NCBI RefSeq assembly: GCF_014764365.1
Contig: NZ_CP061718.1
Location: 2,248,501-2,312,500 of the forward strand
Direction: 5' to 3'
Length of the DNA stretch: 64,000 bases
From: Roseococcus microcysteis
GTDB taxonomy: Bacteria > Pseudomonadota > Alphaproteobacteria > Acetobacterales > Acetobacteraceae
Each line of letters starts with the position of its first letter. Position 1 is the stretch's first letter. A model generated the notes under the pieces. It had not been told where the DNA came from. It searched no databases and saw only the letters and a program-made list of their open reading frames with translations. This document shows, one piece after another, positions 28,713 through 58,222 of the stretch. Both the position numbers and the translations under genes were made by a program.

Positions 28713-29978
28713 TCACGCTGCGAGCGTGGCACCGCGCGCGGCGGCCACGTCCCGGAATATGCGATCCTCTCCGGACAGCACTGCCGCCTTGCCAGTAAGA
28801 TTTTGCCAACGCTGGATCGCTACATCGACGTAGCGCGGATCGATGTCCACCGCGTGGCAGACCCGCCCGGTCGTCTCCGCGGCGATCAGCGTCGTGCCGC
28901 TGCCAAGGAATGGATCGTAGATCGCCTCGCCATCCGCGCTGTTGTTGATGATCGGCCGGCGCATGCACTCCACCGGCTTCTGCGTGCCGTGCACAGTCGC
29001 CGCATCCTCGTCGCCACCATTCGAGATCGCCCAGAGCGTCGCCTGGTCGCGCGCGCCCTGCCAATGGCCAGTCGCACCCTTGCGCACGGCATAGAGGCAG
29101 GGCTCGTGCTGCCAGTGATAGTCGCCGCGCCCCAGCACGAAGCGCGACTTGGCCCAGACGATCTGGCTGCGGATCACGAAGCCGCATGCTTCGAGGCTCT
29201 CGATCACCGTGCGGCTGTGCACGCCGGCGTGCCAGACATAGGCGACGTCGCCGGGGAACAGCGCCCATGCCTGGCGCCAGTCGGCGCGGTCGTCATTCGC
29301 CACCTTCCCGGTGCGCATGGTGGCCGAGACCCCGGCCTCGTTCCGCCATTCCGGATCGTAGTTCACGCCATAGGGCGGATCGGTGATCATCAGATGCGGG
29401 GCGGCACCATCCAGCAGTCGGGCCACGTCTGTCGTGCTGGTGGCGTCGCCGCAGAGCAGCCGGTGCGGACCCAGCAGCCAGAGATCGCCGGGCCGCGTGA
29501 CGGGAATGGTCGGTGGCTCCGGCGCCGGTGCATCGGGATCGCCAGCGGCAACAGGTTCATCCCCGCCGCCTTCGGCCAGCAGCCGGTCGAGTGCCGCCTG
29601 GTCGAAGCCGATCAGGCCGATGTCGAATTCGTCTGCGCGCAGCTCCCGCAGCTCGGCGGCGAGCAGGCTCTCGTCCCAGGTCGAATTCAGTGCCAGTTGG
29701 TTGTCCGCCAGCCGGAAGGCCTTCGCCTGCGCTTCGGTGAGGTGGCCGAGCCGGATGGCGGGAACCGCATCGAGCCCGAGCGCCTTCGCGGCCAGGACGC
29801 GACCATGGCCGGCGATTAGCACGCCGGCATCGTCCACCAGCACCGGCACGTTGAAGCCGAACTCGGCGATCGACGCCGCCAGCTGCGCCACCTGCTCGGT
29901 GGGATGCATGCGTGCATTGGCGGCGTAGGCCGCGAGCGATGCCACCGGCATCATCTCCATCTGAAGGTCAGGCCGCAT
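28713..29978 (-). CDS. ParB-like/DNA methyltransferase fusion, DPPY type
   Basis: A 421-residue protein. Residues 1-90 are a ParB/sulfiredoxin-like nuclease domain (AGVLIAGHGRVLAAKALGLD) and the rest is a beta-class DNA methyltransferase with motif IV DPPYGVNYD and the AdoMet motif YDPFLGSGTTLIAAE near the end. DPPY enzymes usually make N6-methyladenine, sometimes N4-methylcytosine. The start at 29978 overlaps the paralogue stop and has GGAGG nine bases upstream. There is no adjacent restriction endonuclease, so it is probably a phage modification enzyme protecting its DNA. Confidence 0.9.
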   Translation of the reverse strand: MRPDLQMEMMPVASLAAYAANARMHPTEQVAQLAASIAEFGFNVPVLVDDAGVLIAGHGRVLAAKALGLDAVPAIRLGHLTEAQAKAFRLADNQLALNSTWDESLLAAELRELRADEFDIGLIGFDQAALDRLLAEGGGDEPVAAGDPDAPAPEPPTIPVTRPGDLWLLGPHRLLCGDATSTTDVARLLDGAAPHLMITDPPYGVNYDPEWRNEAGVSATMRTGKVANDDRADWRQAWALFPGDVAYVWHAGVHSRTVIESLEACGFVIRSQIVWAKSRFVLGRGDYHWQHEPCLYAVRKGATGHWQGARDQATLWAISNGGDEDAATVHGTQKPVECMRRPIINNSADGEAIYDPFLGSGTTLIAAETTGRVCHAVDIDPRYVDVAIQRWQNLTGKAAVLSGEDRIFRDVAAARGATLAA

Positions 29979-31425
29979 CGGCGGTGGCCTCCATGCGTGC
30001 TGCGGCGACGGCCTCGTAGTCGCGCCCATCATCGGCCAGAGTCACCGGCAGCTCGGGGTGCAGCATGCGCCACCGCGCCACGGCCAAGTCGACATAGGCC
30101 GGTGCCAATTCGATCGCGCGCACGCGGCGGCCGGTGCGTTGGCCGGCCAGGATGGTGGTGCCCGAGCCGCCGAAGGGCTCGAACACGACGTTGCCCTCGT
30201 CGGTGTATGCCCGCATCAGGAACTCCGGCAGCACCACCGGGAACACCGCAGGATGCTCGGTCTCGATGCCGCGGCCCTTGTGCCGGGTCAGGCGCAGCAC
30301 GTTGTCGGGGATCCGGAAGTCCTGCACCGGCAGGCCAGCATGCTGGTATTCCGAGATGGTGCCGTCAGCGGCGCGAAGGCCGCTGCCCTTGTTCGGCGTG
30401 CCAGCCCATTTGCAGGGCACGATCTTGTTCGCCTGGCGTGCCTGGCGGTTGAAGTGGAAGACGAACTCGAAGGCGGGTGCGAGGCGGCCATTCCAGTCGC
30501 CAGGCAATCCAGGGCCCTGGTCCCAGGTGTAAAGGCCGAACCGGCGCCAGCCGCGGGCGCGCATCCAGTCGAGCCAAGCGGCCCAATACGGGATCCATTC
30601 GCTGTCGCGGTGGATCAGCCCGAGATTCACCAGCACCTGGCCATCGGGCCGCATGGCCACGTCGAGATGCTGGAACACTCCGTGCATCAGGGCATCCCAA
30701 TCGGTGCCGCCGCCGGTGGTGTAGTCCCGCTGGTTGCCGTAGGGCGGCGAGGTGAAGAGCAACGCGGCGCGGTCGTCGCCCACCACGCGCGCCACGCTGG
30801 CGGCGTCGGTGCTGTCGCCGCAGAGCAGGCGGTGGTCGCCCAGCAGCCACAGATCGCCGGGGCGGGTGACGGCCTGGCGCGGCGGCTCGGGCTCGGCGTC
30901 CGCAGGGTCCTCCGCCGGCGCATCGTTGCCAGGGGCGTCGCCGCTGGCAATGGCCGGGCTGGCAAGCGCCCCGTTGCCAGGGTCCGTTGCCACTGGCTCC
31001 ATGCTGGCCAGCAACCGGTCAAGCTCACCGGTGTCGAAGCCGGTGAGCGCCAGGTCGATGCCGCCCATCTCCTGCAGCTTGGCGACCTCCGCCGCCAGCA
31101 GCGCCTCATCCCAGCCGGCGTTCAGCGCGATGCGGTTGTCCGCCAGGCGGTATGCGGCCTTTTGCGCGTCGGTCAGGCCTGCGCGGGTGATCGTGGGGAC
31201 GGTCTCCAGGCCCAGGGATTTCGCGGCCTGCAGCCGGCCGTGCCCGGCAATGACCTCGCCGCTCTCATCCACCAGCACCGGCGCCACGAAGCCGAATTCC
31301 AGAATGCTGGCCGCGATCTGCGCCACCTGCTCGGCGGAATGCGTGCGCGCATTGCCGGCATAGGGCAGCAGGGAGGCGATCGCGCGCGCCTCGACGGCGC
31401 TCGCAGACCATGGGGCCTGGGGCAT
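29968..31425 (-). CDS. ParB-like/DNA methyltransferase fusion, SPPY type
   Basis: A 485-residue paralogue of the downstream gene with the same domain order: ParB-like domain (SGEVIAGHGRLQAAKSLGLE) then a methyltransferase with motif IV TSPPYGNQRDY and motif I FEPFGGSGTTILAGQ. The SPPY form points to N4-cytosine specificity, so the pair would modify two different bases or sites. The start at 31425 is preferred over 31485 because the N-terminus of the paralogue aligns there. Both are transcribed toward lower coordinates as a two-gene unit. Confidence 0.9.
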   Translation of the reverse strand: MPQAPWSASAVEARAIASLLPYAGNARTHSAEQVAQIAASILEFGFVAPVLVDESGEVIAGHGRLQAAKSLGLETVPTITRAGLTDAQKAAYRLADNRIALNAGWDEALLAAEVAKLQEMGGIDLALTGFDTGELDRLLASMEPVATDPGNGALASPAIASGDAPGNDAPAEDPADAEPEPPRQAVTRPGDLWLLGDHRLLCGDSTDAASVARVVGDDRAALLFTSPPYGNQRDYTTGGGTDWDALMHGVFQHLDVAMRPDGQVLVNLGLIHRDSEWIPYWAAWLDWMRARGWRRFGLYTWDQGPGLPGDWNGRLAPAFEFVFHFNRQARQANKIVPCKWAGTPNKGSGLRAADGTISEYQHAGLPVQDFRIPDNVLRLTRHKGRGIETEHPAVFPVVLPEFLMRAYTDEGNVVFEPFGGSGTTILAGQRTGRRVRAIELAPAYVDLAVARWRMLHPELPVTLADDGRDYEAVAAARMEATADAA

Positions 31426-31742
31426 GCGCACCTGCTGAAATCGATGATGGTGGTGAGGAACGCCGCCTGGGGAGCCTGGCAACACGGCGCCGTGGCAACG
31501 TCGTAAAATGGCCTGGCGCTAGCGACCTTGCGCGCTTCCGCCCCCCGCATACAGCGGGGCCAGGAAGGACCCTACGGCTCGAGAGCCACAGTCTGGATCG
31601 AGTCGCAGCGTGGCTGCTCAGCCGCGGCGCTCTCGCACCTTCTCTACGTGTCTTGCTTCTAGCCTTATCGATTTCGGAGCCGCTACGGGGTGAATTGTAA
31701 CAGCGTGATCGGGGCGATGATGACCGCCCCGATCGTCCCGCG
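31426..31742. other. 317-base gap between methyltransferase pair and replication operon
   Basis: No convincing gene is present. The right part holds the terminator described at 31707-31734. The left part contains a moderately AT-rich stretch and likely the promoter for the methyltransferase pair on the minus strand, but I see no good -35/-10 pair. Confidence 0.5.
31707..31734 (-). terminator. Terminator after the DUF6456 gene
   Basis: GATCGGGGCG (31707-31716) and CGCCCCGATC (31725-31734) form a perfect ten-pair stem with an eight-base loop, just beyond the stop of the DUF6456-like gene. On the minus strand the following sequence is only weakly T-rich, so termination may need assistance. It ends the long replication operon. 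Confidence 0.7.
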
Positions 31743-48768: not shown

Positions 48769-50117
48769 CCCGCCGCGCTCGCATCGAGCCGGCCATGCCG
48801 GCCACCACGAAGAAGCTGCGCTGCGCCGTCTACACCCGGAAGTCTACAGACGAGGGCCTGGAGAAGGAATTCAACACCCTCGACGCGCAGCGTGACGCCT
48901 GCGAGGCGTACATCACCAGCCAGCGTGCCGAGGGGTGGGTGCTGGTGCGCGACCGCTACGACGATGGCGGCTTCTCCGGCGGCACGCTGGAACGACCGGC
49001 GCTGCAACGCCTGCTGCGCGACATTCAGGCCGACCTGGTCGACGTGATCGTAGTCTACAAAATTGATCGCCTCAGCCGCTCGCTGATGGATTTCGCCAAG
49101 CTGGTGGAGGTGATGGACGCGCATGGCGTGACCTTCGTGTCCGTCACGCAGTCCTTCAACACGACCACCAGCATGGGCCGGCTGACGCTGAACATCCTGC
49201 TCAGCTTCGCGCAGTTCGAGCGCGAGGTCATTGGGGAGCGAATCCGGGACAAATTCGCAGCCTCCCGCGCCCGCGGCATGTGGATGGGAGGGAAGGTGCC
49301 GCTCGGCTACGACGTGGTTGCGCGCAAGCTAATCGTGAATGAGGACGAAGCCCCGCGCGTGCGCCGCGTGTTCGAGATTTTCGCCGAGACGGGATCGGGC
49401 ATGGAGACGGTGAAGCGCCTTCGTGAGGAGGGGCTCACCAGCAAGGTGGGCCGGCCGCTGGACAAGGGCGACGTCTACAAGCTGCTCAACAACCGGACCT
49501 ATGTCGGCGAGGCGGCGCACAAGGGAAACATCTATCCCGGCGAGCACCAGGGGATCGTGCCGCGGGAACTGTGGGATCGCGCGCACGCCGTGCTGCAGAT
49601 CAGCCCGCGGGTGCGCGCGAACCAGAACCGGTCACAGACGCCGGCGCTGCTGAAGGGGCTGATCTTTGGGGTGGATGGACGGTCGCTGTCGCCGACGCAC
49701 GCCAGGAAGAACGGCCGGCTCTATCGCTACTACGTGGCGCAGCGCGTGCTGAAGGGCGATGCCGCCGGCGACGACAGCATCGTGCGCCGGGTGTCTGCGG
49801 CGGAGATCGAGGTGGCGGTGGTGGACCAGGTGCGGGCGGTGCTGCGCCAGCCGGAGATCGTGGTCGGCACCTGGCGGGCGGCGCGCAGGGAGGCACCGGA
49901 CCTGACCGAGGGCGAGGTCCAGGATGCGCTGCATCGACTTGATCCGCTGTGGGAGCACCTGTTCCCGGCGGAGCAGGCGCGCATCGTGCGGTCGCTGGTG
50001 GAGCGGGTGGTGGTCGGCCCGGCCGGCGCAGACATTCGGCTGCGGCTGGACGGGCTCGGCGGCCTCGTCCGCGATCTCACGGCCATCTCACCGAGCGCCC
50101 TGATGGCGGCAGCATGA
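48765..50117 (+). CDS. Large serine recombinase, prophage integrase
   Basis: A 450-residue enzyme. Catalytic Ser27 lies in VYTRKSTDEG; the resolvase domain continues to about residue 150 (VVYKIDRLSRSLMDFAKLVE, LNILLSFAQFEREVIGERI), followed by a recombinase domain (GYDVVARKLIVNEDEAPRVR, DVYKLLNNRTYVGE) and a shorter C-terminal region (GVDGRSLSPTHARKNGRLYR). A zinc ribbon is not clear. It cuts and joins the prophage at att sites. It overlaps both neighbouring genes by four bases. Confidence 0.93.
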   Translation: MTRRARIEPAMPATTKKLRCAVYTRKSTDEGLEKEFNTLDAQRDACEAYITSQRAEGWVLVRDRYDDGGFSGGTLERPALQRLLRDIQADLVDVIVVYKIDRLSRSLMDFAKLVEVMDAHGVTFVSVTQSFNTTTSMGRLTLNILLSFAQFEREVIGERIRDKFAASRARGMWMGGKVPLGYDVVARKLIVNEDEAPRVRRVFEIFAETGSGMETVKRLREEGLTSKVGRPLDKGDVYKLLNNRTYVGEAAHKGNIYPGEHQGIVPRELWDRAHAVLQISPRVRANQNRSQTPALLKGLIFGVDGRSLSPTHARKNGRLYRYYVAQRVLKGDAAGDDSIVRRVSAAEIEVAVVDQVRAVLRQPEIVVGTWRAARREAPDLTEGEVQDALHRLDPLWEHLFPAEQARIVRSLVERVVVGPAGADIRLRLDGLGGLVRDLTAISPSALMAAA

Positions 50118-50503
50118 CGACCGCGACCAGCATCACGGTCCGGGTGCCGCTGGCCATTCGACACCGGCCCGGCAGGAAGACCGTCGTGACGCCGATGACC
50201 GATGGCGTGGCGCCTATCACGACGCGCGCCGACCCGGCGCTGGTGAAGGCTGTGGCCAGGGCGTTTCGGTACCAGCGGATGCTCGATCAGGGGCGCTACG
50301 CGTCAATCAGCGAGATGGCAGAGGCGGAGCGAATCGAGCGTGGCTACCTTGGCAGCCTGCTGCGCCTGACGCTCCTGGCGCCCGACCTCGTTGAAGCGGT
50401 CCTGAACGGTAGGCACCCGAAGGATCTGCAACTCTCTTCGATAATCAGAAATTCCCTATTTTCGTGGGAAATTCAACGCCAAGCGCTCCATTCGCGTTGC
50501 TGA
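50114..50503 (+). CDS. Small HTH-like protein downstream of recombinase
   Basis: A 129-residue protein with a helix-turn-helix-like centre (YASISEMAEAERIERGYLGS, LLRLTLLAPDLVEAVLNGRH) typical of a gene that follows recombinase and DUF2924 genes. The C-terminal end (LQLSSIIRNSLFSWEIQRQA) diverges from the usual end of this family, and the DNA there is less GC-rich than its surroundings. This might mark the edge of the inserted element. The start overlaps the recombinase stop (ATGA). Confidence 0.72.
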   Translation: MTTATSITVRVPLAIRHRPGRKTVVTPMTDGVAPITTRADPALVKAVARAFRYQRMLDQGRYASISEMAEAERIERGYLGSLLRLTLLAPDLVEAVLNGRHPKDLQLSSIIRNSLFSWEIQRQALHSRC

Positions 50504-50636
50504 CGATCTAGGCCCGGCACGGGACGGACCTCGAGAGAGGGTCAGATTTTCTTGTCGGCAGGCCTCTCCATTGTTGTCATACATTTCGAAGGGAGCTAGT
50601 AGGGTAGTGTCACACGGTACAGGGAGACCAGGAGGC

Positions 50637-51920
50637 ATGCCGCGACCCAAGGCTAAAGAACCACGCGCCAAGGTCGCCAGCGTGCGGCTGACCCCGAGTG
50701 AATGGACAGAGATGGAGGCCGCCAGCGCGGCCAGGGGTTTTGCGAGCCTAAGTGAATACGTTCGCCACCTTCATGACGAAGCGCTGAAGGCCAATGGCAG
50801 CAAGGAAGGTAAAGCGGCAGTTAATCCGCGTGATTTTCCGTTTAGCAATATGCGTCGCCACCTCGATACCGATTTTGGACAGGCAATGCACGGCGACGCG
50901 CGCTGCTATTTGTTTGGCGGCGCCAAACCCAAATCCGTGGACCTGATTGTAACTTCCCCACCCTTCGGGTTAGTCAAGAAGAAGGATTACGGGAACGAGG
51001 ATGCGCACCGATACTGCGACTGGTTTCGCCCATTCGCAGAAGGTTTCCGGCGCGTCCTAAAGGACACTGGAAGTCTTGTGATCGACATTGGCGGCGCTTG
51101 GAAGCCAGGCACACCAACGCGTTCGCTCTACCATTTCCAATTGCTCGTGATGCTTTGCGAAGAGTACGGCTTCCACCTGTGCCAAGAGCACTATTGGTGG
51201 AATCCGTCCAAGCTGCCGAGCCCCGCGGAATGGGTCAACATTCGTCGCGTTCGAGTAAAAGATGCCGTCAACACGGTTTGGTGGCTATCGCCGACGCCTT
51301 GGCCCAAGGCCAACAACCGTCGCGTCCTCGCGCCCTACAGCCCCTCGATGCGGACCCTGCTACGGGACGGCTACACCCCGAAGCTCCGGCCCTCAGGCTG
51401 GGACATTTCGGAGAAGTTTGGCCGCGACAACGGCGGTGCCGTGCCGCCGAACCTGCTCGCCATCGCGAACACAGAGTCCAACGGCCAGTATCAGGACTTC
51501 TGTCGCCGCAATAACCTGCCGATTCATCCAGCGCGCTTTCCGGACGCCCTGCCCGAGTATTTTATCCGCTTCCTCACCGAGCCAGGCGACCTCGTGGTCG
51601 ATCCCTTTGGGGGATCCTGCGTCACCGGCGCCGTCGCAGAGCGGCTAGGCCGCAAATGGGTCTGCTGCGAGTTGGAGGAAGACTATCTGAAGGGGGCTGC
51701 GGCACGCTTTGGTGACAGCCCGCGGCAGTCGGCGAAGGAGGTCACCTACTCCCTGGCGCCGCCCTGCCGCCTGCCAGTGGACGAGGCGAAGGTGCCCCTC
51801 CACGCCGACGGAGGCAGATCGCGGCCTACGCCGCTGCCGCCGATGTCCGATCCGCCGCCGCGGCTGACGCCGAAGCGCCGACGCAGCGAGCAGCCCACCC
51901 TTCTAATCCCTGCCGAGTGA
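50637..51920 (+). CDS. Solitary DNA methyltransferase with RHH-like N-terminus
   Basis: A 427-residue protein. Residues 10-50 (KVASVRLTPSEWTEMEAASA, then SLSEYVRHLHDEAL) look like a ribbon-helix-helix domain, and the rest is a beta-class methyltransferase with motif IV TSPPFGLVKKK and the AdoMet site DPFGGSCVTGAVAERLG. A TSPPF-type enzyme is likely to target cytosine N4 or adenine. The ATG at 50637 has AGGAGG nine bases upstream. It faces the McrBC-like operon and could provide modification for it. Confidence 0.88.
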   Translation: MPRPKAKEPRAKVASVRLTPSEWTEMEAASAARGFASLSEYVRHLHDEALKANGSKEGKAAVNPRDFPFSNMRRHLDTDFGQAMHGDARCYLFGGAKPKSVDLIVTSPPFGLVKKKDYGNEDAHRYCDWFRPFAEGFRRVLKDTGSLVIDIGGAWKPGTPTRSLYHFQLLVMLCEEYGFHLCQEHYWWNPSKLPSPAEWVNIRRVRVKDAVNTVWWLSPTPWPKANNRRVLAPYSPSMRTLLRDGYTPKLRPSGWDISEKFGRDNGGAVPPNLLAIANTESNGQYQDFCRRNNLPIHPARFPDALPEYFIRFLTEPGDLVVDPFGGSCVTGAVAERLGRKWVCCELEEDYLKGAAARFGDSPRQSAKEVTYSLAPPCRLPVDEAKVPLHADGGRSRPTPLPPMSDPPPRLTPKRRRSEQPTLLIPAE

Positions 51921-53109
51921 GGCCTGCCAGGTCGACCAGCCAGGGCATGCCATCCGGGTGCGGCGCTGGCAGCGGAGCGAGCCCGCTCCGGTCTAAGAGT
52001 GCCACCACCGAGGTTCCGAGGAGATCATCCAACGCGCTCGGCTCACGATAGCCGCGCGCGTAGCGGACGACCTGCGAAACAGCGTCACGAAAGGCATCGG
52101 CGCTGTCGCCTAAAACGAAGAACTTCGCCTCCAGCACAGCCACGGCCTCGCCGCTGTCGTCATCGAGCACAACGACGTCGGGCCGGTCGGAAGATGCACG
52201 AAATCCGTAGGCGCCTAAGATCCCAGCGATGGCGGCCTCTGAAGGCTCAGGGAGCGGTGTCTGGTGTGCCTCCGTGAGCGACTGCCAGTGCACTGAGAAC
52301 CGACCTATACGCGCTATCCGCCGGTCCCCTCCGGCGAGGAGGTCCAGCGCCGGCCTAGTCCTGGACGCCACGCCCAGCGCTTCGGCTGCTGCGAGCGCAA
52401 CCGCAAGCTCGAAGCGGCGCCATGCCTCGGTCGGGCCAATCAACGTGTCGGCCAGAACGGCCCTCAGCGCGTCAGGGTCGCCCGACTCCGCCTTGATCAG
52501 GACCCTGTAGGCCTCAGCGGCCGCCACGTAGAGTGGCAGACGCGACCGCGCCGCCTCCACCACCGCGGCGCCCCCCGGACGGCGGCCATCGACAAAGGCC
52601 GTGCCGGCAGCGCGGACGTGCGCCGACCGTGCGACGGCCTCAATCTCGCCCGACACCTCCATCGCTCGCGGGCGCTGCGGTGATCCCTCCGGCGCCATTG
52701 CAACGAAGCGCGCTGCGCCCCGACGCGCCGCTCCTAAGACCCAGAGGAGAACGCGATTTGGGCCCGAGGCGAAGTTCCGAACTGGCTCATGTCCCACCAT
52801 CAACGTCGGGTGACCGGTGACGAGGCGGCGAACCAGGGTGGCCCTCGCGTCCAAGCGGCCGCGAACCTGACCATCCTCAGTCCGCGGCGACGTGGCGAGC
52901 ACTGACCGCAACTCATGAGGGTGGCTCACCAGCCGATGTATCAACGCGCGCACTGGAGCTGAGACGGCCCAACGCATGCGGATATGGTCCAGGTCGTCGA
53001 GTCGGCGCACGTCGGCGTCTGGGCCGGGCACCACGGCGACGCCGCTGCGGTAGTAACGCAGAAGAACGCCGAGAATGTAGTTGTCGATCGTCGCCTCGGC
53101 TCCGGTCAC
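51826..53109 (-). CDS. McrC-like nuclease subunit
   Basis: A 427-residue protein with a C-terminal PD-(D/E)XK site (RPDVVVLDDDSGEAVAVLEA, then K in EAKFF). The N-terminal half is helical and beta (RRLVTGHPTLMVGHEPVRNF) and would contact the ATPase. GTG start at 53109 overlaps the stop of the McrB-like gene (GTGA). In McrBC, the C subunit cuts modified DNA. Its 3' end overlaps the methyltransferase gene (on the other strand) by about 95 bases. Confidence 0.82.
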   Translation of the reverse strand: MTGAEATIDNYILGVLLRYYRSGVAVVPGPDADVRRLDDLDHIRMRWAVSAPVRALIHRLVSHPHELRSVLATSPRTEDGQVRGRLDARATLVRRLVTGHPTLMVGHEPVRNFASGPNRVLLWVLGAARRGAARFVAMAPEGSPQRPRAMEVSGEIEAVARSAHVRAAGTAFVDGRRPGGAAVVEAARSRLPLYVAAAEAYRVLIKAESGDPDALRAVLADTLIGPTEAWRRFELAVALAAAEALGVASRTRPALDLLAGGDRRIARIGRFSVHWQSLTEAHQTPLPEPSEAAIAGILGAYGFRASSDRPDVVVLDDDSGEAVAVLEAKFFVLGDSADAFRDAVSQVVRYARGYREPSALDDLLGTSVVALLDRSGLAPLPAPHPDGMPWLVDLAGLTRQGLEGWAARCVGASASAAAADRTSAAAA

Positions 53110-54239
53110 ATCGCCACAGCGAATAGCCGCCGCTCCAATTCAACGCGTTCCCCCGCTGGCAACGCAAGTGCGTCTGCCACAGCACTGGCGATACCGGCGG
53201 CTTCCTGCCGGGAGATACCGTCCATCATCGGCAGCAGGTAGAGCGAGAAGGCGTCGAGATAGGCCTGCTGGTGCTCTGATGCGGTCGGTGCCGCGGCGAA
53301 GTCCAGGTCCTCTGCGATCCCGCGGACCGTTCGGATCGCATCGATTATTGGCGCTGCGCCCACGGCGCGCACTGCGTTGACAGCGTCCCAGACTGCCGCA
53401 AGCGGGAGGGGCGCGCCTGCGGCCGGCTCTGTCGCTGCGAGACCCTCGCGCACGAGGAACTCCGAGAGGAAGGCGCGTGTATCGCGCGGCGCGTCCACGA
53501 AGATCCAACCGAAGCGTCGCGCCAGCGCGAAGCTCATTTGGTAGAGTGAGGCCTTGTCCAAGGTATTGATAGTGGCAATCAGGCGCCAACCATCACCTGG
53601 TGCGTGTTCGTGTGTCGCCGCCCCCGGCTTGGGGCGCGGAAGTATGACGTGCGTCGGGCTCGCTGGGTCGGCGGCGTCGGTGCGGTAGGGAAGCGTCGTC
53701 GGCTGGCCACTGAGCACGGTAAAGAGTGGCCCTAGCACCTTGTCCACGTCGCACCGGTTGAGTTCGTCGATTACCAGCGGCCTGTGGAAGTTCTGCAGGA
53801 GGATGCCCGGCACGAATCCCACCTTCCCCTCGCCAAGCGGCTGGTAACCGCCGATGATGTCCTGCGAACTCCAGTCGGCCGAGCCGGTCACCATCCGCCA
53901 GCCGCTGCCGGAGAGTACTCCGGCGATATGCTGCGCGAGCTCGGTCTTCCCCGTCCCGGGCGGGCCGTAGAGCATGAGGTGGCGCTTGCCCGCGCGAAGG
54001 GCCGCGTTGATCTGCCGGTAGACGGCGGGGTCGATCCCGAGAAGCTTCGCCAACTCTGGCACTTCGCGCAGTGGTACTGGCTCGTCTTCGGCCGGATCGT
54101 CCTCCTCGCCGTCTACCGCATCCGCCGGTCGAGGGGCAGCCGCGGCAGCTTGGGCGAAGGCGGCGGCGACGTCGCGAACGAGGCGCGCACGCTCCTCCTC
54201 CTCGAGACCTTCGTAGACCGGAATGCTACGCGGCGGCAT
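53106..54239 (-). CDS. McrB-like AAA+ ATPase
   Basis: A 377-residue protein with GPPGTGKTELAQ (Walker A) near residue 119, LVIDELNRCDVDK (Walker B), ATINTLDKASLYQMSFALAR (the McrB-type sensor region) and the sequence RFGWIFVDAPRDT. The canonical McrB signature NTADRSL is changed to NTLDKASL, so the nucleotide could be ATP or GTP. The start at 54239 overlaps the stop of the upstream gene by 14 bases. It forms the motor for the McrC-like nuclease. Confidence 0.85.
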   Translation of the reverse strand: MPPRSIPVYEGLEEEERARLVRDVAAAFAQAAAAAPRPADAVDGEEDDPAEDEPVPLREVPELAKLLGIDPAVYRQINAALRAGKRHLMLYGPPGTGKTELAQHIAGVLSGSGWRMVTGSADWSSQDIIGGYQPLGEGKVGFVPGILLQNFHRPLVIDELNRCDVDKVLGPLFTVLSGQPTTLPYRTDAADPASPTHVILPRPKPGAATHEHAPGDGWRLIATINTLDKASLYQMSFALARRFGWIFVDAPRDTRAFLSEFLVREGLAATEPAAGAPLPLAAVWDAVNAVRAVGAAPIIDAIRTVRGIAEDLDFAAAPTASEHQQAYLDAFSLYLLPMMDGISRQEAAGIASAVADALALPAGERVELERRLFAVAM

Positions 54240-55680
54240 CAGCGCGCTCCGGCCAGCCGAAGACGGGATCCACCTGCACAAGAGCCGACACCGCCGCCGT
54301 CGCCTCGGCATAGGTGATGGGCCGTGCAAGCTTCGGATGCTCGAAGACGTCGTCGCCCTCACTCAGCGACACGAGCGCCGCGGCAACGTAAGGTCTCGGC
54401 TTGCCGATGTAATCGAGCCGGCCACTCACCGGGTCGAAGTCGCCGAGCATCTGCCCTGAGGATCCGGGGGGCAGGGCGGGCAGGAAGCCAAGTAGGAGCA
54501 TCCACTCCCAGGTCTCTTGGAAGGCGAAGGTACCATCGTCGAGCCGGATCGCCGGCACGACCCGCGTCAGAACCATGCCGCTCACGCCACCCTTCGTGTT
54601 GGCGAATGCAATCCGTTGATCCCCGTGCTGGCCAGCGAGGCTCGCAACAACCCCGCCGTCGTGTACCGCTATGTGGACGATCCAGCGCAGCGGCTTATTC
54701 GTCGCGTCCGTAGGCTTAGCCCAGAACCCCGTGCCCTCATTCACCTCACCGCAGTCGGCCAGCGTGCGCTTCTTGGATCCGCAGAGGTGGAGCTCCAGGC
54801 CGTGCTCCCCGAGTACACGCGTCAATTCGCTGGCGATGAGTGAGCGCGCCTCGTCGCGTACCCCGGACTGCCAACGCTGCGAGAAGGGCGGACGGTGGAA
54901 GTTGACCTGCGCGCCTGGGCTGGCGGCTTCCAGAACCTGCCGCAACGCATAGAGCGCCTTGTCGCAGTCCAGGAGCCCAGGCCGAGTACCACGTGGCCGC
55001 GCGGCGGCCGGGATCTCGGTCCGGAACGCTGCAACGATCTGGCGCTTGTGCTCGCCGCTGACGATGGGCTCGAAGTGGTCAGGGAACAGCAAGAAGAGAA
55101 GCGCATGACGAACTGGGCGCCTGTCTGACCCGGGAACCGTCGCCAACCACTCCGCGAATCGCCAAGGCGCCTCCGCGTCGCTGAGGAGTGCGACCCGGTC
55201 AGCCTCTGGCCGCGTCTTCCAGGCGGCCATCGCGTCGAGCAGGAAACCGAACTCGTCCGGAAACCGCGCAAGGTAGGCGGGGCCCGGCTTGCCGACGCCC
55301 ATGAGCGCGGCTTCGTCGAGATGGGGTGTGACGCCGGAGCCCGGGAACGCCCAGACCTCCATGACCCGCTCGGCCTTTCGCTCGGCTCCATATTTTGAGT
55401 TGTGGGGGAACAGGAGCAGCAGCCAGACAACCTCGGCGGCGAGGTGGCTCAAATGCGGTGGCGCGCCGACGAGTTGCTCACGCAGCTTGTCGAAGAACGA
55501 CCGATCCGCCCCAATGATCGGATTCGCGCGGAACAAATCCCTCAGCGCTGTCAAGTTATCGGCGGTCCAGAGCCGCTCGTCCCCGAGAATCGAGCCGTCG
55601 TCCTCAAAGCAGCGGCTTCGCCATGCTGCCGAGGCATTGAGGACGGCGCCTACCTCTGGGTTCCCCCTCCAACTTGCCAT
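54226..55680 (-). CDS. Unknown 484-aa protein of the McrBC-like operon
   Basis: A protein with an N-terminal region resembling those found before McrB-like ATPase domains (ERLWTADNLTALRDLFRANP, FDKLREQLVGAPPHLSHLAA) but without an ATPase domain. The C-terminal half contains Trp/Gly-rich patterns (TGFWAKPTDATNKPLRWIVH, FAFQETWEWMLLLGFLPALP). It is first in the operon. It may recognise modified DNA or recruit the McrB-like protein; this is a guess. I do not recognise a named family. Confidence 0.6.
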   Translation of the reverse strand: MASWRGNPEVGAVLNASAAWRSRCFEDDGSILGDERLWTADNLTALRDLFRANPIIGADRSFFDKLREQLVGAPPHLSHLAAEVVWLLLLFPHNSKYGAERKAERVMEVWAFPGSGVTPHLDEAALMGVGKPGPAYLARFPDEFGFLLDAMAAWKTRPEADRVALLSDAEAPWRFAEWLATVPGSDRRPVRHALLFLLFPDHFEPIVSGEHKRQIVAAFRTEIPAAARPRGTRPGLLDCDKALYALRQVLEAASPGAQVNFHRPPFSQRWQSGVRDEARSLIASELTRVLGEHGLELHLCGSKKRTLADCGEVNEGTGFWAKPTDATNKPLRWIVHIAVHDGGVVASLAGQHGDQRIAFANTKGGVSGMVLTRVVPAIRLDDGTFAFQETWEWMLLLGFLPALPPGSSGQMLGDFDPVSGRLDYIGKPRPYVAAALVSLSEGDDVFEHPKLARPITYAEATAAVSALVQVDPVFGWPERADAAA

Positions 55681-55792
55681 CCGGCTGACCCTCTGTGAAA
55701 ATTCGTTCCGTCTCTACTACACCCTTTGTCATAAGCTTGGGGGGTGGCAAGACCGCCCGTGTGCTCTCTTCACTTCGGCAGACCCCAAATCG

Positions 55793-56842
55793 ATGCCTCG
55801 AATTAGCAAGAAGACCCTGCTCCAGGACGCCGTGGAGGCAATTCGCTCCGCCGGCTGGGAGGTCGCCGTCCTGTCCAAGGCAGGCCAGCACCCGATGCGG
55901 CTCCGTATGCGTCGGGGCACCACCGACATTATCACTTGCGTCTACATCTGGGCCGTCTCGCACGGCGGGGGGCGGGCCAGGCCCAGTCACGAGCACCGAA
56001 TCCAGATCACGAGCGACGTGGCACAGTTTAGGCTGGAAGACGGCGAGAAGACTCTTGTGCTCGGTTGGAGCAGTAAGTTCGGCGTCTATGCCGCCTTCGA
56101 CGTGACACGGCACGCCGGCCGCCTCGGTTCCTCGCCTTCAATGCAGATTGGGCAGGCGGCGCTCCTTCGGGCCGGGGAGGTTGGCGCTGCGATGCATATG
56201 CGTCGCCGCGACGAAGTCGCCATTGCCGTGCGGCCGGACCTGCTCGGGGACTACGTTGAACGTCTCGAGCTTTTGCACAACAAGGCGAGCGCCGCCCGCC
56301 AGATCGAGGAGCTTAGGCGCGCCCTCGACCCCGCTCCTGAGGCCGACGTGCTGGTCTCGGAGGAAGCACAGCGAGCGCTCGTCGAACTTGAGGCGGGTCG
56401 CAAGCCTAGGTTTGGGGACCTGAATGAGATCGCGCAGAGGCAGACGATCATTGAGCGTCTTGCGGCGATCGAGGAACGGCTCTCCGCACTGGCTCCCGCG
56501 AAGATCGGCCACAATCAACCGCCTGAGCCTATTGAAGCCGATCAGGTGTCTCCGATCCTAGAGGCCAGGGATGCCTCGCGCACGATCGCGGTGGAGGTTG
56601 CCAAGGCCAAACCCGACGTCGCCGAAGTTGCGCGGCGGACGACGATTCTTGCCGGTATGGCCCGCAAGCTTCGCGCAGCAGGCGGCGGCGTCGCGGACTT
56701 CGGAAAGCGCGTGAAAGACAAGGCTCATGATAAAGCGGCGGAGATCGTCGCCACTGCCGTCGTCGGTGGAGGCGCAGCTCTCCACCAGCAGATTGGCAGC
56801 GCTCTCAGCAGCATAACTAACTGGTTCAAAATGCTTTTCTGA
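55793..56842 (+). CDS. 349-aa protein with unassigned N-terminal domain and coiled coil
   Basis: The N-terminal 150 residues (HEHRIQITSDVAQFRLEDGE, TLVLGWSSKFGVYAAFDVTR, SPSMQIGQAALLRAGEVGAA) resemble domains seen in predicted restriction proteins that sense DNA modification. The next part has a Glu/Arg-rich coiled coil (about residues 160-270) and a C-terminal Ala/Lys helical region with a weak hydrophobic end (VATAVVGGGAALHQQIGSAL). It is divergent from the 484-aa gene, 112 bases away, so both may share a control region. Role in defence is inferred from location. Confidence 0.65.
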   Translation: MPRISKKTLLQDAVEAIRSAGWEVAVLSKAGQHPMRLRMRRGTTDIITCVYIWAVSHGGGRARPSHEHRIQITSDVAQFRLEDGEKTLVLGWSSKFGVYAAFDVTRHAGRLGSSPSMQIGQAALLRAGEVGAAMHMRRRDEVAIAVRPDLLGDYVERLELLHNKASAARQIEELRRALDPAPEADVLVSEEAQRALVELEAGRKPRFGDLNEIAQRQTIIERLAAIEERLSALAPAKIGHNQPPEPIEADQVSPILEARDASRTIAVEVAKAKPDVAEVARRTTILAGMARKLRAAGGGVADFGKRVKDKAHDKAAEIVATAVVGGGAALHQQIGSALSSITNWFKMLF

Positions 56843-57403
56843 GGTTCGGCCCGGTCTTTGGGACCATCGCTGAGGGTGTTGCGAGTTACCTGGGCGACGA
56901 TCAGCTTGGCGTCACGAAAGGTTTTCTGGTTCCGGTTGCCTTTGCCGGGCAGTCGACTTGCTGAATGCCACCAAGCTTCAAGGAGCATCAAAGACGCAAA
57001 ATCAGTTGGTTAGGGCTTGAGGGCTAAATCGTCCTACCCCCAAGCTTCGGAGACTTTCCCGGCTGCGGAGAGCGATTTCCCGGTTCGTTGCGTTCTCCGA
57101 CCCTCAAGCCATCGCGGCAAAACCCCAGGAAACCTGCGGTTCACGGCGCTGTTGGCGCATGGGAAATGTCAGGTTGGAAAACCGACTGGAGCAGCGGTGG
57201 GAACTGGAATCCAACCTTCGCTGGTGTTCGTGAGACACGTCTCGCCGGCCGACAGTGTTCGCGTACCGTGACTCAACCCGGTCTTGACCCTGACTTTCGC
57301 GCTGCGCATCCTGTCGGTAAGGGGCCCTCCGCGATCGCCCCGTGAGGCTTCGGCCCAAGCATCGCGTCCATGCTCCGGCGCCCCGCGCCGAAGGAGGACG
57401 CAC
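56843..57403. other. 561-base gap right of the defence cluster
   Basis: No firm gene is seen. One frame from about 56845 to 56962 reads like a protein end (VFGTIAEGVASYLGDDQLGV, then GFLVPVAFAG), possibly the remnant of a transporter cut by the insertion. The right part (57088-57345) has ORFs on both strands with no family signal. This gap probably contains the right border of the horizontally acquired block, and the promoter of the chrBA genes. Confidence 0.4.
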
Positions 57404-58222
57404 GTGCCGAGCCCTGACATCATCACACCGAGCCAGCTTGCCCGGCTTCTCGGAACGCCAGACGCGCCGATCATCCTGGACGTCCGCACCGACGAGGATT
57501 TCGCCCGAGACCCCCGCACCCTGCCGGGGGCGCTTCGCCGCGACTTCCGCTCCGTTGCCTCCTGGGCGGGCGATTTCGCTGGGCGCCCCCTGGCCGTCAT
57601 CTGCCAACGCGGCCTCAAGCTGAGCCAGGGCGTGGCCGCTTGGCTCCGCCATGCGGGCAGCACCGCCGAGGCGCTGGAGGGTGGCTTCAAGGCCTGGGCG
57701 GCCGGCGGTGGCCTGCTCGTCCGACTGGACCACGTGCCGCCGCGCGACGCCCAGGGCCGCACGGTCTGGGTCACGCGCGCCCGCCCCAAAATCGACCGCA
57801 TCGCCTGCCCCTGGCTGATCCGTCGCTTCATGGATCCGGCCGCGGTGTTCCTCTTCGTCGCTCCGTCCGAGGTGCCGGCTGTCGCCGAGCGCTTCGGCGC
57901 CACGCCCTTCGACATCGATGGCGTGTTCTGGAGCCACCGTGACGAACTCTGCACCTTCGACGTCATGATCGAGGAGTTCGGCTTGGCCTCCGACCCGCTG
58001 CTGCGGCTGGCGGCCATAGTGCGCGGCGCCGACACCGCACGGCACGACCTGGCGCCCGAGGCGGCGGGGCTATTGGCCGCCTCGCTCGGCCTCTCGCGCA
58101 TGTATCGGGAGGATCTGGCGCAGCTCGACGCCGCGATGGGCCTCTACGACGCCTTCTATCGCTGGGCGCGCGACGCCACGGCCGAGACCCACAACTGGCC
58201 CACATCAGGAAGCAAGGCATGA
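57404..58222 (+). CDS. Rhodanese-ChrB chromate resistance protein
   Basis: A 272-residue protein. Residues 1-105 form a rhodanese domain, with Cys in VICQRGLKLSQG as its active loop, and the C-terminal 160 residues form a ChrB domain (RARPKIDRIACPWLIRRFMD, DELCTFDVMIEEFGL). ChrB acts in chromate response with the ChrA transporter next to it. The GTG at 57404 has AAGGAGG seven bases upstream, and its stop overlaps the ChrA start (ATGA). Confidence 0.9.
   Translation: MPSPDIITPSQLARLLGTPDAPIILDVRTDEDFARDPRTLPGALRRDFRSVASWAGDFAGRPLAVICQRGLKLSQGVAAWLRHAGSTAEALEGGFKAWAAGGGLLVRLDHVPPRDAQGRTVWVTRARPKIDRIACPWLIRRFMDPAAVFLFVAPSEVPAVAERFGATPFDIDGVFWSHRDELCTFDVMIEEFGLASDPLLRLAAIVRGADTARHDLAPEAAGLLAASLGLSRMYREDLAQLDAAMGLYDAFYRWARDATAETHNWPTSGSKA

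Follow-up and report, generated by a model that had tools for sequence, protein, structure and literature searches.

McrBC is commonly regarded as a Type IV enzyme that depends on DNA modification. LlaJI, LlaI and BsuMI, however, are McrBC-type restriction-modification (R-M) systems: LlaJI restricts unmethylated DNA with homologues of McrB and McrC, and the restriction cassette of LlaI and BsuMI consists of three genes and includes an AAA-only McrB, 337-343 amino acids (aa) long (PMC1459862). According to a review, LlaJI is a GTPase relative whose recognition is directed at unmodified DNA (PMC12707154), and Bell et al. 2024 mentioned, and left for later, a clade of McrB-like GTPases bearing the NxxD signature that is linked to DNA methyltransferases (PMC11090510). 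Here we describe five genes carried by a prophage of Roseococcus microcysteis, in a 64,000-nucleotide stretch of contig NZ_CP061718.1 (hereafter the window, numbered from its first base). They encode a DNA methyltransferase, a McrC-like nuclease, a McrB-like AAA+ motor and two further proteins of 484 and 349 aa (Table 1). We consider it highly probable that the cluster is a GTP-dependent McrBC-type R-M system travelling as prophage cargo, in which the methyltransferase would protect the host and the McrBC machine would cut unprotected foreign DNA. The layout, which an initial annotation made from the DNA letters had thought new, has precedents in the three systems named above (PMC1459862); the kind of system is known, and this McrB family itself is unstudied.

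Both homology and conserved linkage support the restriction cluster of McrB, McrC and a methyltransferase that the initial annotation had recognised. The methyltransferase matches Pfam N6_N4_Mtase (PF01555, 1e-37) and the MTase_II profile (6e-113), shares 55% identity with M.PvuII across 278 aligned columns (PDB 1boo, E = 8e-104), and carries TSPPF, in keeping with the SPP[FY] motif of M.PvuII-like N4-cytosine methyltransferases. From this resemblance its target is probably CAGCTG, modified as N4-methylcytosine. The window holds 18 CAGCTG sites against ~22 expected from base composition, a count uninformative on site avoidance. The AAA+ motor matches Pfam AAA_5 (PF07728, 8e-22) and the McrB structures 6hz4/6ut6 in PDB, and is 54-60% identical to the C-terminal part of fused McrB proteins on Ensifer and Novacetimonas plasmids. 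It retains Walker A (GPPGTGKT), Walker B (IDELN) and the NxxD signature as NTLD. The sensor NTLDKASL, singled out earlier as unusual, is present as described; it keeps NxxD (PMC11090510) and is of the ordinary kind for its subfamily, in which close relatives read N[ST][IL]DKA[SA]L, so nothing further is required to account for it. The McrC-like protein is 41-43% identical to the product of the gene that follows McrB on the Ensifer and Novacetimonas plasmids, and its active site, RPD...E-x-K...Q, is invariant across 13 homologues. A McrC profile matches other McrC proteins (probability 86%, E = 5e-6); the same alignment profile gave nothing significant against PDB sequences.

We then scanned 84,980 species genomes with an alignment of the motor and searched the open reading frames (ORFs) of the resulting loci with each window protein. 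The McrB family was found at 29 loci. Wherever the contig is long enough, the motor gene is followed by McrC, and all 25 loci with sequence beyond McrC have an M.PvuII-like methyltransferase adjoining it; two of these loci, L029 and L030, are identical copies in one genome, and the contigs of L027, L045, L048 and L049 end too early to judge. The methyltransferase is convergent with the McrBC genes in 24 of the 25 and lies on the same strand in L034. Plasmids of Ensifer (L015) and Novacetimonas (L016, where the methyltransferase spans the record start) show the same pairing, and the linkage extends across Alpha- and Gammaproteobacteria, Acidobacteria and Planctomycetes. Thus the methyltransferase, at first called solitary, is a conserved neighbour of McrBC. 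Because McrBC is fixedly paired with one methyltransferase family, cutting of unmethylated sites, as by LlaJI, is indicated, and the earlier proposal that the nuclease senses foreign modification finds no support. The system is also rare and patchy, since the 484-aa protein is absent from 298 other genomes of the order and a distant motor relative occurs in only 2 of 298 other genomes of the family.

The start of the methyltransferase, previously described as RHH-like, is an extension kept in most homologues; its Pfam support is weak, with a NikA-like match at E = 0.005, below the cut-off. The extension is absent from the methyltransferases of L026, L034 and L050 and from plasmid Type II relatives. 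By analogy with other DNA-binding methyltransferase extensions, it may serve autoregulation.

Order, strands and overlaps of the five ORFs are as first annotated: the McrB and McrC genes overlap by 4 bases (GTGA), the 484-aa and AAA+ genes by 14 bases. The 3' ends of the convergent McrC and methyltransferase genes share 95 bp (window 51826-51920), and such an overlap recurs in about a third of loci (L015, L016, L031, L037, L039-L043, L046). It could permit antisense control of nuclease and methyltransferase.

Both proteins initially left without a function can now be placed, the 484-aa protein as the front half of McrB and the 349-aa protein as a member of the MTaX1 family. The former has no significant Pfam match. 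In a translated plasmid search its residues 1-280 aligned with the N-terminal domain of large proteins named "AAA family ATPase", and its N domain is 30-37% identical to the N-termini of fused McrB proteins of another McrB family on plasmids. A gene in the McrC position follows these plasmid ATPases in 7 of 8 records, the exception being an apparently broken locus in Mesorhizobium. Residues 276-475 match residues 6-205, the N-terminal domain, of the Ensifer McrB (26% identity, E = 4e-13), and the 484-aa and AAA+ proteins together align end to end with fused McrB, meeting at the split point. Because the M part and the motor match the two parts of fused McrB, we interpret the 484-aa protein as the McrB front half plus an added module. 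In an AlphaFold2 model (mean pLDDT 78) the N domain is helical and the M domain rich in beta structure; a fold search with this model returned no match with E below 0.5, and profiles of the N and M alignments found nothing significant among PDB sequences. The M domain is kept in all 29 loci and the two plasmids. As regards a B3-type reader like that of LlaJI.R1, the M domain is beta-rich in the model but gave no sequence or fold match of any kind. Pfam did not detect DUF3578 in any of 22 homologues.

The N domain bears on an alternative that we consider unlikely: that this is a Type IV McrBC which cuts foreign modified DNA and stands beside a methyltransferase with another job, such as regulation or protection against a different nuclease. 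The best-known McrBC is modification-dependent, and the N domain also occurs in McrB proteins that lack a directly adjoining methyltransferase and sometimes carry an EVE modified-base reader (an EVE domain follows the N-domain counterpart in L002 and, weakly, in L003). Such a reading would have to accommodate one methyltransferase family beside McrBC at every testable locus, and within the M domain Pfam finds neither DUF3578 nor YTH nor EVE.

In most loci McrB is a single chain of ~590 residues in which M and motor are fused. An N-M protein of ~480-510 residues and a separate motor are encoded instead in the window, L023, L026, L034 and L044, and L050, from Planctomycetes, encodes an M-only protein and a separate motor. 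An origin of the split by frameshift or artefact can be ruled out, as the split is kept in L023, L026, L034 and L044 and, in M-only form, in L050. Fusion is the commoner state of this family, which might suggest a degraded cluster whose McrB was split by a frameshift or sequencing error and which is inactive. We regard this as extremely improbable: the split recurs in five other genomes (L050 without the N domain), most with an MP.. restart, the frames are intact and the catalytic motifs kept, and GGAG lies seven bases before the ATG. Because split homologues restart at the same place, most of them with MP.., the motor most likely starts at this ATG, at position 54239. In a tree of AAA+ domains the split proteins of L023, L026 and L034 are basal and those of the window, L044 and L050 lie on unresolved long branches, a topology insufficient to count McrB fission events. 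Scans of viral contigs with the 484-aa protein and with the N-domain alignment found no relative, and a phage collection held no match for the 484-aa protein or MTaX1.

The 349-aa protein matches MTaX1 (PF20296) at 3e-24, with 86.2 bits against a curated cut-off of 25. MTaX1 is present at 4 of 28 loci (the window, L023, L040 and L041), compared with a background of 5 in 385 genomes of the class, and the association is therefore real but optional. Together with the methyltransferase pairing at 25 of 25 loci, these counts mean that chance can be excluded as the source of the gene associations. Of the expectation that all five genes co-occur across genomes, the part concerning McrB, McrC and the methyltransferase holds and that concerning MTaX1 does not; what is conserved is not a fixed five-gene unit but three core genes with a detachable McrB front half and an optional MTaX1. 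The position of MTaX1 varies too, between McrC and methyltransferase in L023 and upstream of McrB in L040 and L041. This bears on whether two systems merely lie side by side, a methyltransferase-MTaX1 pair of the ordinary Type II operon kind interrupted by a McrBC cassette. In the window the methyltransferase and MTaX1 do flank the McrBC genes, and on Thiothrix and Roseivivax plasmids an MTaX1-HNH gene directly follows the methyltransferase; yet 24 of 28 loci have methyltransferase and McrBC without MTaX1, and together with the variable placement this makes two separate systems very unlikely.

Relatives of the MTaX1 protein differ in their C-termini. Those in L017, L018, L023 and L041 have an HNH-type end, as judged from annotation or from sequence (and in L023 borne out by Pfam HNH_2), that in L019 carries GmrSD, and the window protein and that of L040 share a coiled-coil-like tail (68 bits) modelled at low confidence. 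A membrane effector in the tail was ruled out, the highest 19-residue hydropathy being ~1.0. The predicted domain (residues 1-165; pLDDT mostly 66-88, in a model that rests on only four sequences) matches SPARDA DREN (probability 1.00, E from 1.3e-3) and, less strongly, the homing endonuclease I-Ssp6803I. DREN has a PD-(D/E)XK fold with catalytic residues D41, Q60 and K62 (PMC12205087). MTaX1 proteins conserve a Q in a RIQVT-like strand, and the second residue after this Q is mostly T, giving Q-x-T as against Q-x-K in DREN. If the RIQVT-like strand equals the DREN strand, MTaX1 seems to lack the catalytic lysine and to be a DNA-binding pseudonuclease. It is an optional accessory and probably a discriminator that binds DNA through a fold of nuclease ancestry.

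Table 1. Cluster genes, domains of the 484-aa protein and the neighbouring recombinase (window positions).
Feature	Position	Strand	Basis
M.PvuII-like N4-cytosine DNA methyltransferase, 427 aa, RHH-like N-terminal extension at ~residues 1-50	50637..51920	+	PF01555; identity to M.PvuII
McrC-like PD-(D/E)XK nuclease subunit, 427 aa, GTG start	51826..53109	-	Homology and active-site motif; no Pfam match
McrB-like AAA+ motor (377 aa): the motor half by itself, N-terminal reader domain absent	53106..54239	-	PF07728
484-aa protein, detached specificity half of McrB: helical N domain and beta-rich M domain	54226..55680	-	
N domain of 484-aa protein, residues 1-272, predicted all-helical	54865..55680	-	Likeness to fused McrB N-termini
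M domain of 484-aa protein, residues 276-484, putative DNA-target reader	54226..54855	-	Likeness to Ensifer McrB
MTaX1 protein, 349 aa: MTaX1 domain and low-confidence coiled-coil tail; divergent from 484-aa gene	55793..56842	+	PF20296
Large serine recombinase of the carrier prophage, outside the system	48798..50117	+	PF00239, PF07508; phrog_95 integrase 6e-103

In the R-M system that we propose, the methyltransferase would mark its target on host DNA. The 484-aa subunit would recognise the unmarked target through the M domain, acting as reader, and recruit the separate AAA+ ring, so that the two McrB halves assemble; the ring would translocate DNA using GTP, and the McrC-like subunit would cut the unprotected invading DNA. 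Several points weigh against this scheme. Standalone McrBC enzymes cut modified DNA, Pfam returns nothing significant for the McrC-like protein, and the M domain, matched by neither Pfam nor PDB sequences nor known folds, has no detectable kinship with a known reader. That the specificity is M.PvuII-like is an assumption based on 55% identity, and the methyltransferase could have an orphan-like role. A broader idea, which we put forward tentatively and regard as rather doubtful, is that McrBC machines can use a detachable, exchangeable specificity subunit like HsdS of Type I systems. Here an N module and an M reader from different McrB families might form a free-standing adapter that programs an AAA-only McrB ring, and MTaX1 might be a dead nuclease fold turned methylation discriminator. 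The family offers a clean test case in which the one methyltransferase type has a known relative in M.PvuII, McrB occurs both fused and split among close relatives, and the reader modules are separable. It would make it possible to ask directly if McrBC readers change over from modified to unmodified DNA, and by what means.

The placement of the cluster beside a serine recombinase had suggested that it is cargo. Prophage genes in the window include those for a terminase, portal, head protease, tape measure, tail fibre and serine integrase. In a congener genome (G222) a prophage is colinear from the left flank to the recombinase and differs in DNA beyond it, where its slot (L063, L065-L067) encodes a Type III methyltransferase and a restriction-helicase protein. 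The recombinase sequence is present in 66 of 299 genomes of the family, and 12 of 14 further slots read downstream of it hold defence-like proteins (L073-L088), two of them (L074 and L082) counted by a methyltransferase only and the proteins of L083, L084 and L088 classed by their sequence resemblance to the L078 and G222 proteins. Slot contents include Type I, II and III R-M, DarTG, a LmuB-like ATPase, a helicase system, and a McrB-like AAA gene with a methyltransferase (G013). Because the G222 slot carries a different system and most sampled slots hold defence genes, cargo status is well supported. The prophage slot between the recombinase and the right end (window 48798-57248, recombinase included) exchanges whole restriction systems.

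In the G013 slot (L087, 2481-6921), a McrB-like AAA gene (638 aa) and a neighbour of 436 aa accompany a Type II methyltransferase of another sort beside the same recombinase; this is possibly a second McrBC-type R-M family. At the right border of the window prophage, a ~62-bp sequence at 57187-57248 (within 56843-57250) is repeated 67 kb to the left (G000:C1:2238285) at 87% identity in the same orientation. The G222 element is flanked by like direct repeats, and related copies are scattered in the genus; the repeats flanking the 67-kb prophage are possible att sites or a dispersed repeat. A chrB-a RNA motif (RF03078, 58.4 bits, above the gathering score) lies on the plus strand at 57316-57406, just upstream of rhodanese/ChrB-like and chromate-transporter-like genes at the prophage border. 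Elsewhere in the prophage, two adjoining ParB-nuclease/methyltransferase-like proteins (28713-31485; phrog_498 and phrog_620, of which only the protein at 29968-31485 was searched) are a possible second set of phage methyltransferases.

Comparison with described systems places the cluster among several relatives. It shares with E. coli McrBC (Type IV) an NxxD AAA+ motor and a PD-(D/E)XK partner in one operon, and differs in having no detected DUF3578, a conserved methyltransferase neighbour and a McrB in two polypeptides. The PvuII R-M system has the same methyltransferase family, whereas its restriction part is the small endonuclease R.PvuII and not a McrBC-type machine. Type II MTaX1-HNH proteins (L017, L018) likewise set an MTaX1 domain beside an M.PvuII-like methyltransferase; in the window protein and L040 a coiled-coil tail takes the place of HNH. 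Like LlaJI, the cluster joins McrB- and McrC-like subunits to its own methyltransferase, but LlaJI methylates an asymmetric site with two 5-methylcytosine methyltransferases, and its McrB is fused to a B3 reader (PMC1459862, PMC12707154, PMC7680126). The clade of Bell et al. 2024, compared by description only, also links McrB-like GTPase genes to DNA methyltransferases. By layout and size the cluster resembles BsuMI and LlaI, with a methyltransferase, a three-gene cassette and an AAA-only McrB (337-343 aa there, 377 here); it differs from both in that its methyltransferase is M.PvuII-like, has an RHH-like N-terminus and is convergent with the cassette.

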